A stretch of DNA of 64,000 nt from Actinomycetota bacterium (GTDB taxonomy: Bacteria; Actinomycetota; Actinomycetes; Nanopelagicales; Nanopelagicaceae). Both the position numbers and the translations under genes were made by a program. The notes below the pieces were generated by a model that was not told where the DNA came from, searched no databases, and saw nothing but the letters and a program-made list of their open reading frames with translations. The stretch is from positions 1 through 64,000 of the forward strand of contig WLOP01000005.1 in assembly GCA_009699205.1 (NCBI GenBank), in the 5' to 3' direction. Positions 33,874 through 37,455 of this stretch are shown here, one piece after another (the first letter of the stretch is position 1; each line of letters starts with the position of its first letter).

Positions 33874-34176
33874 TTAAGAGGCGTGTGAAATCGATGCGAC
33901 TGTCTTGCGATCCAAAATTGCAAGCCGTTCATCCTCGGTAAGACCGCCCCAGATTCCATAAGGCTCTTGCACGGAGAGAGCATGCTCGCGGCATTCTTGA
34001 ATGACAGGACAAGCTGCACACACTGCCTTCGCTGCATTTTCTCTGTTGCGCCGGCGAGGTCCACGCTCTCCATCGGGGTGAAAGAACATCTCCGTAGGTA
34101 ACTCTTGGCACGCGCCGGAGTATTGCCATTCCCAGAGATCGGCAATGGGCTTAGGTAGTCGGGATATTTCAGCCAT
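33874..34176 (-). CDS. WhiB-family iron-sulfur regulator, WhiB3/WhiD-like
   Basis: A 100-residue Wbl protein. Four cysteines for a [4Fe-4S] cluster are at C23, C53, C56 and C62 (pattern C...CxxC...C), followed by the sigma-factor-contacting turn GIWGGL. FFHPDGERG and HALSVQEPYGIWGGLTEDER match the WhiB3/WhiD subgroup best. Such proteins bind the primary sigma factor and respond to redox or nitric oxide. ATG 34176 is chosen because a -10 box ends six bases upstream; longer in-frame starts are less likely. Divergent from the MerR/B12 gene. Confidence 0.92.
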   Translation of the reverse strand: MAEISRLPKPIADLWEWQYSGACQELPTEMFFHPDGERGPRRRNRENAAKAVCAACPVIQECREHALSVQEPYGIWGGLTEDERLAILDRKTVASISHAS

Positions 34177-34182
34177 GGGGCA

Positions 34183-34211
34183 ACCATACAATCGCGCCAT
34201 AAGTTGTTCAA
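34183..34211 (-). promoter_or_regulatory. Leaderless promoter of whiB
   Basis: On the minus strand TTGAAC (34211-34206), a 17-base spacer and TATGGT (34188-34183) are followed by six bases (34182-34177) and ATG. This is a near-ideal promoter placing the transcription start on the start codon. No Shine-Dalgarno is present. Confidence 0.75.
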
Positions 34212-34286
34212 GTTCGACAGGCGCAATCCCATTTTGGGGGGTCATTTGGGGTGGTGTGAATTGCGTGAGAGCGCGAGGATAGGGTC

Positions 34287-35177
34287 GTGAATCAGTCCCT
34301 GAGCGTGGCAGCCCTTGCCCGCAGGCTAGGGATTGCCGCGGCCACTCTCCGAACGTGGGATCGTCGATATGGCTTGGGGCCGAGTGAACATCAGGCTGGA
34401 TGCCATAGACGTTATTCCCAGAGCGATGTAGCAAAGCTGACTTATATGCGTCGCTTAGTTGTCTCAGGTGTTGCTCCAGCAGATGCAGCGGTCAGAGCAA
34501 AAGAGCACGACGGTAGTGAAGCACCGGTCGATAAATTCCTGAAGAATAAATCCAGCGCTCAAGGGCGTGAAGAATTAGTCGCTTCTCTTTTTCGTGCAGC
34601 CCAAGGACTCGATAGCGTATTTTTGGAGAGCGCCTTAATAAAAGAGATTAAGAAATACGGTGCAATTTCTACATGGCATGAGGTTGTCGTCCCACTTCTT
34701 GTCCGCATAGGTGAAACATGGGAGCGGACTGAAGAAGGTGTTGAAGTAGAGCACGTGCTCTCTGAGATTCTCAAGCGAGTCTTTCATTCTGTAGAACCGA
34801 AAAAAGCTGAAAATTCACGGCCGGTCTTATTAGCGGCAATTGCCGAAGAGCAACACTCGTTGGCTCTCTACGCACTAAAAGCTGCCCTTGTCGAACGGGG
34901 GATTAGCGTTCAATTCTTAGGAGCTCGTACTCCACTGGAGGCAGTTGTCGGAATCGTTAAACGAATTGCGCCTCCAGCGGTATTCCTTTGGGCATGCATG
35001 CCAGAAAATGCAGATCCTCGATTTATTAACAATCTCCCCAAAGTTCGCCCAGCACCGCGAATCATTATTGGCGGCCCTGGGTGGAACCTCACTGAGTGCG
35101 AAGGGGCCATTTTCGCGCCTGATATAGCAAGCGCATGCGAGGAAATTACGCAGGCAGTCGGAGTCCAATACGCCCGA

Positions 35178-35180
<3 letters not shown>
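34287..35180 (+). CDS. MerR-family regulator with B12-binding photoreceptor domain, CarH-like
   Basis: A 297-residue protein. Residues about 5-75 are a MerR winged helix (LSVAALARRLGI, LRTWDRRYGLGPS). Residues about 95-170 form a helical bundle containing W145 and E155-H156, the W-x9-EH motif of CarH/LitR-type sensors. A Rossmann-like B12 domain follows, with E188-x-H190 as the expected lower cobalt ligand and IIIGGPGW near residue 260. CarH binds DNA with adenosylcobalamin in the dark and lets go in light. Spacing H156 to H190 (34) nearly equals that in Thermus CarH (H142 to H177). GTG start; GAGGAT ends six bases upstream. Confidence 0.83.

Positions 35181-37455
<2,275 letters not shown>

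Follow-up and report, generated by a model that had tools for sequence, protein, structure and literature searches.

The 64,000-nucleotide stretch of DNA under analysis (the window) carries on its forward strand a gene (merR, 34287..35180) with a GTG start that encodes a LitR/CarH-type MerR regulator of 297 amino acids with a B12-binding domain. Divergent from it, on the reverse strand, lies a whiB3/whiD orthologue (33874..34176, approximately 100 amino acids), which is its predicted target. The product of this gene has a Wbl domain and matches WhiB3 best among PDB entries (4.7e-32, versus 2.3e-13 for WhiB1) and the gene is located between groEL and guaB, all features expected of whiB3. The conserved neighbor guaB (35221..36351, forward strand), 40 bp downstream of merR, encodes a 376-amino acid IMPDH without CBS domains, unlike the guaB homologue at L033, which has them. 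The order groES-groEL-whiB(-)-merR-guaB-guaB3-guaA recurs in nearly every one of 80 Nanopelagicales loci and, in varied form, in other Actinomycetes, and the merR/whiB3 pairing is retained in most of the family. The isolates IMCC25003 and IMCC26103 also have the locus in their genomes. Mycobacterial whiB3 and Streptomyces whiD are the same Wbl orthologue, and their loci share the groEL-whiB3-guaB neighborhood, with other genes in the position of merR.

The regulator joins a MerR winged-helix DNA-binding domain (amino acids 6-67; 34302..34487, forward strand) to a helical cap (amino acids 92-167; 34560..34787, forward strand) and a cobalamin-binding Rossmann domain (amino acids 175-294; 34809..35168, forward strand). 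Pfam models matched the winged helix (MerR_1, 6-67; 2.7e-12), the cap (B12-binding_2, 100-166; 2.1e-6) and, slightly below the family cut-off, the Rossmann domain (B12-binding, 180-269; 4.6e-7). CarH of Thermus thermophilus (TtCarH) aligned with the protein over its full length in phmmer (2.2e-19). An AlphaFold model computed from 45 family sequences had a mean pLDDT of 90.8 and retrieved full-length TtCarH as the top match in Foldseek. When superposed with VIA-align, the model gave a Z score of 18.6 at 2.5 Å to TtCarH (5c8d), 19.1 to CtMerR and 20.9 to photocobilin 8j2x. The class I LitR/CarH architecture (MerR winged helix-turn-helix, four-helix cap and Rossmann cobalamin domain) is, hence, present in the regulator. 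Pfam, phmmer, AlphaFold and structural alignment all bear out the description in an earlier note of a winged helix joined to a helical bundle, and the superposition on CarH that the note had proposed revealed a shared fold.

The residues predicted to line the cobalamin pocket are W145 (34719-34721) and E155-H156 (34749-34754) in the cap and E188-Q-H190 (34848-34856) in the Rossmann domain, exactly where the earlier note had placed a W-x9-EH and an E-x-H motif. W145, E155, H156, E188 and H190 are invariant in the 45-sequence family alignment, which argues against a chance motif, and the equivalents of W145, E155, H156 and H190 in TtCarH are W131, E141, H142 and H177. The ligand spacing of the Thermus protein, which the note had also claimed, is reproduced in the motifs but not to the residue, since 34 residues separate H156 from H190 and 35 separate H142 from H177. 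The reported replacement of Gly by Ala in ExHxxG is real (A193), at a position that varies (A, L, V, P or I) across the whole family. Because Streptomyces LitR also lacks this glycine, the substitution is a family trait common to a light-responsive relative rather than a local oddity. W235 occupies the position of the Ser in the SxL motif, so that both W235 and A193 stand where small residues would be expected near the nucleotide tail; a GG pair follows at residues 262-263. E146 replaces H132, the TtCarH residue that adjoins W131 and serves as the second axial cobalt ligand in the light state, and His never occupies this position in the family. Light-responsive cobalamin domains carry the SignatureFinder signature GxxW, EH, GxxH and GxxxP (PMC11796333). 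The regulator has GxxW (G142-W145), EH (E155-H156) and GxxxP (G212-P216); the GxxH element is disrupted by E187 in place of Gly, and in most relatives a Gly sits one residue earlier. The changes near the nucleotide tail (G to A, S to W) could be read as the mark of a protein that, like CarA or class II LitR, no longer binds B12. We consider this very unlikely, for H190, E188, W145 and E155-H156 never vary within the order and Streptomyces LitR has the same kind of substitutions. Rather, the fold, the conserved pocket, the AdoCbl-related genes of the genome and the nesting with Streptomyces LitR lend good support to a B12-binding regulator of the LitR/CarH type, and we infer from these features that the protein binds AdoCbl.

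The intergenic region between the divergent genes contains a candidate operator that overlaps the whiB3 promoter. A -10 element for whiB3 (TATGGT, 34183..34188, reverse strand) lies six bases before the ATG, suggesting a leaderless whiB3 transcript; among relatives this distance is the most frequent one, seen in roughly half of the measured cases. On sequence grounds, whiB3 probably starts at 34176 and has a leaderless mRNA; the mechanically called whiB reading frame (33874-34434) is too long, because the promoter and operator lie inside it. A longer whiB reading frame starting at 34245 would run across the promoter. A conserved promoter/operator element, TTGAACAACTTATGGCGCGATTGTA (34187..34211, reverse strand), comprises the -35 (TTGAAC, 34211-34206) and a 17-bp spacer. 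Its consensus, TTGAACAACyTATGnnnCGrTTGTA, is found in the whiB3-merR gap of 75 of 78 loci. As the element spans the -35 and the spacer, a protein bound to it would cover the whiB3 promoter. The putative operator proper, CGCGCCATAAGTTGTTCAA (34193..34211, forward strand), has two half-sites, GCCA and TTCA, arranged head to tail at a distance of 11 bp. In CarH operators, 11-bp repeats with TnnACA follow one another in tandem (PMC9304148); the complement of this half-site, TGTnnA, occurs within CGCGCCATAAGTTGTTCAA. Of the two half-sites in our candidate only one holds the full TnnACA core (TGAACA), and the same approach applied as a check to the Thermus crtB-carH gap returned three TnnACA sites at 11-bp spacing. 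Furthermore, 29 loci have a second copy of the element 26-27 bp towards merR (CGcKyCAnAnSTTGTTCA) that has no -10 part, and this exposes the binding unit (two head-to-tail half-sites 11 bp apart) free of promoter constraint. An ACAAC-N10-GTTGT dyad was considered as the operator core and rejected, because the second copies do not have the ACAA arm. We interpret the element at 34187-34211 as the candidate operator of the merR product; one or other of the operator copies would presumably control merR itself.

The distribution of the element across genomes follows that of the regulator. Allowing three mismatches at most, we found it exactly once per genome in all 15 family genomes with merR and in none of the 10 without the gene, and the copy at 34187-34211 was the sole match of this quality in the source genome. 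A search of the family genomes for further regulon sites with the longer element pattern recovered none beyond the whiB3 site; the exact core pattern, CGNNNCRNNNNTTGTTCA, had scattered matches in most genomes and in the source genome matched the whiB3 site only. Four genomes (G005, G012, G014 and G018) have kept whiB3 without merR, and in them the element is gone; all belong to one genus and, therefore, should not be counted as four independent losses. In G005, a TTGACA -35 persists together with the -10 region, AACyTATG is lost, and whiB3 has come to face guaB directly. Among other Actinomycetes, the element is recognizable at the two loci where merR faces whiB3 (L032 and L033) and absent from three loci (L030, L034 and L035) with homologues that have no whiB3 found alongside. 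The overlap with the whiB3 promoter, and the partial conservation that sigma factor binding imposes on promoters, would also fit an element owned by another regulator, such as WhiB3 itself or a sigma factor, with only an indirect link to merR. This explanation is unlikely, given that the spacer bases are conserved beyond promoter needs, that second copies occur 26-27 bp away without a -10, and that the element is absent both where merR was lost but whiB3 kept and where merR is not beside whiB3. The evidence points instead to the divergent gene, and we predict from the sequence that whiB3 is the target of the regulator. Neither a whiB3 orthologue nor merR was found in the family genomes G002, G003, G004, G006, G021 and G023, which suggests joint loss. 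At L053 (4700-5010), the whiB3-merR operator is missing and the whiB3 match is 44% over a short part, possibly a decaying pair.

With the NCBIfam CarH model (NF052513), whose cut-off is 400 bits, the regulator scored 104.5 bits. In the phylogenetic tree, whose rooting is unsure owing to long outgroup branches, a 44-row query clade took in Streptomyces sequences and split from TtCarH with support of 100/100. Judged by these sequence comparisons, the regulator belongs with the actinobacterial LitR clade and lacks several defining features of Thermus CarH. The CarH-like label that the earlier note had given it holds, then, in the sense of a B12-binding LitR/CarH type and fails in the strict Thermus sense (no His132, altered GxxH and SxL, a low model score and no carotenoid genes nearby). 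The Thermus protein shares with it the fold, the W-x9-EH and E-x-H motifs and, if the putative operator is the binding site, the 11-bp half-site spacing and the TnnACA core in one half-site, but the two are only 26-28% identical, the query does not have H132, GxxH, ExHxxG or SxL, and neighborhood and clade differ. A classical CarH orthologue that controls carotenoid synthesis in response to light would account for the common fold and main pocket residues and for the phytoene synthase in the genome; however, the low CarH score, the unmatched H132, GxxH and SxL features and the position outside the TtCarH clade make it highly improbable, as does the lack of an adjacent crt gene, with the sole operator match of the genome at whiB3/merR and phytoene synthase on another contig.

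The nearest characterized relative is, instead, Streptomyces LitR; the S. coelicolor protein is reported to sense light through coenzyme B12 and to promote transcription of litS (PMC12705666). We equated the Streptomyces sequences of the tree with LitR from gene order and not from accession: the homologue is divergent from an ECF sigma gene and itself precedes a lycopene cyclase gene and further genes of crt type. The Streptomyces homologues carry W-E, EH, ExHxxP, WSQ and GPGW in common with the query. LitR of the litRS-crt cluster is, thus, like our regulator in its MerR, cap and Rossmann domains, in the W-E, EH and GPGW motifs, in an ExH without the Gly and a Trp at the SxL Ser, in a gene divergent from a regulatory gene, and in clade; it differs in sequence (33-36% identity) and in its partners, the ECF sigma factor LitS and crt genes rather than WhiB3. 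The whiB3-merR element was not found in the Streptomyces litR intergenic region. CtMerR (8jbs/8jbt) and the photocobilins (8j2w-8j2y) also share the fold, the Trp and the EH motif, and have no His at the H132 position, but CtMerR sits in another clade and the photocobilins have a bilin-binding globin domain and no MerR domain. CtMerR and the photocobilins are light responsive despite having no H132-type His, which is Arg in CtMerR (PMC11796333).

We propose, and consider likely, that the protein is a MerR regulator of the LitR type that depends on AdoCbl, has the divergent whiB3 gene as its dedicated target and leaves the DNA once the adenosyl group is lost. AdoCbl would sit between the cap and the Rossmann fold, with H190 as the lower cobalt ligand and W145, E155 and H156 surrounding the adenosyl group. 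The AdoCbl-loaded protein would oligomerize and bind the tandem 11-bp half-sites over the whiB3 -35 and spacer, blocking RNA polymerase at the promoter. Adenosyl loss, whether by light or because AdoCbl is scarce, would then release the DNA and allow whiB3 to be expressed. We favor repression as the sign of control, since the promoter that the operator overlaps has a spacer of normal length (17 bp) and spacers of 19-20 bp are usual where MerR proteins activate. Streptomyces LitR differs in this respect, as it is described as promoting transcription.

The signal could be AdoCbl supply, light or both. The source genome encodes a PduO-type adenosyltransferase, MetH and a class II ribonucleotide reductase and, thus, AdoCbl should be in the cell; methylmalonyl-CoA mutase, sought as another AdoCbl user, was absent from this genome. 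A cobalamin riboswitch match at G000:C1:133169-133342 was below threshold (25.3 versus 31.5 bits). The genome also has rhodopsin, phytoene synthase and photolyase genes, and light is a plausible trigger by homology with the characterized relatives. The H132A variant of TtCarH stays mostly tetrameric after illumination, its light-driven disassembly largely blocked (PMC10442372). Without H132, light release would require another route in our regulator, as in CtMerR with its Arg. Two genomes, G015 (3 contigs, 100% complete) and G017, keep merR, the pocket residues and the operator with no rhodopsin or photolyase detected in either, and this weakens the case for light as the only signal. These observations leave room for a regulator that responds to AdoCbl supply or to redox state, in which the AdoCbl level sets whiB3 expression and the photosensitivity of the Co-C bond is incidental. 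The presence of homologues in deep Baikal assemblies, the use of AdoCbl by the class II ribonucleotide reductase and the response of the WhiB3 Fe-S cluster to oxygen and NO (PMC4255298) are all in its favor. Yet the relatives nest with the experimentally light-responsive Streptomyces LitR, other homologues adjoin photolyase or carotenoid genes, and W145-E155-H156, the adenosyl cage of light sensors, is invariant. A sensor that ignores light is, on balance, a serious contender that falls somewhat short of probable. Rhodopsin and merR co-occurred in 9 family genomes, with 6 having merR only, 3 rhodopsin only and 7 neither, an association too weak to be used as an argument.

Nanopelagicales are among the most abundant bacteria in lakes. 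A broader scenario, which we offer tentatively and with more doubt than confidence, is that streamlined freshwater actinobacteria have a B12 sensor that lacks the bis-His switch, is of common stock with Streptomyces LitR and has whiB3 as its sole target; this sensor would couple light and AdoCbl status to a redox regulon, and the carotenoid control by LitR would be a later recruitment. The proposed control of whiB3 would extend the targets of LitR/CarH proteins beyond carotenoid synthesis and photolyase, provide WhiB3 with an upstream input and suggest that Streptomyces LitR derives from an older whiB3-linked regulator. Our literature search found no paper that mentions CarH and WhiB together, and neither a light RNA-seq paper on freshwater actinobacteria nor a heliorhodopsin paper mentions the regulator. 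With one operator per genome, the circuit would be simple and testable.

Further homologues adjoin crtI-crtB or photolyase genes, the latter also in G042. A distinct CarH-like MerR-B12 protein (28% identity) is encoded next to a fasciclin gene in G006 (L038, 6236-7129), which does not have the whiB3-linked one. The photolyase-adjacent homologue in a 9.2-Mb actinobacterial genome (G054; L040, 5740-7140) appears to be split over two frames, one for the HTH and one for the B12 domain, by either a real frameshift or a sequencing error. In G052 (L035, 4889-6349), a TudS-DUF1722 (RudS-like) gene adjoins the crt-linked homologue.
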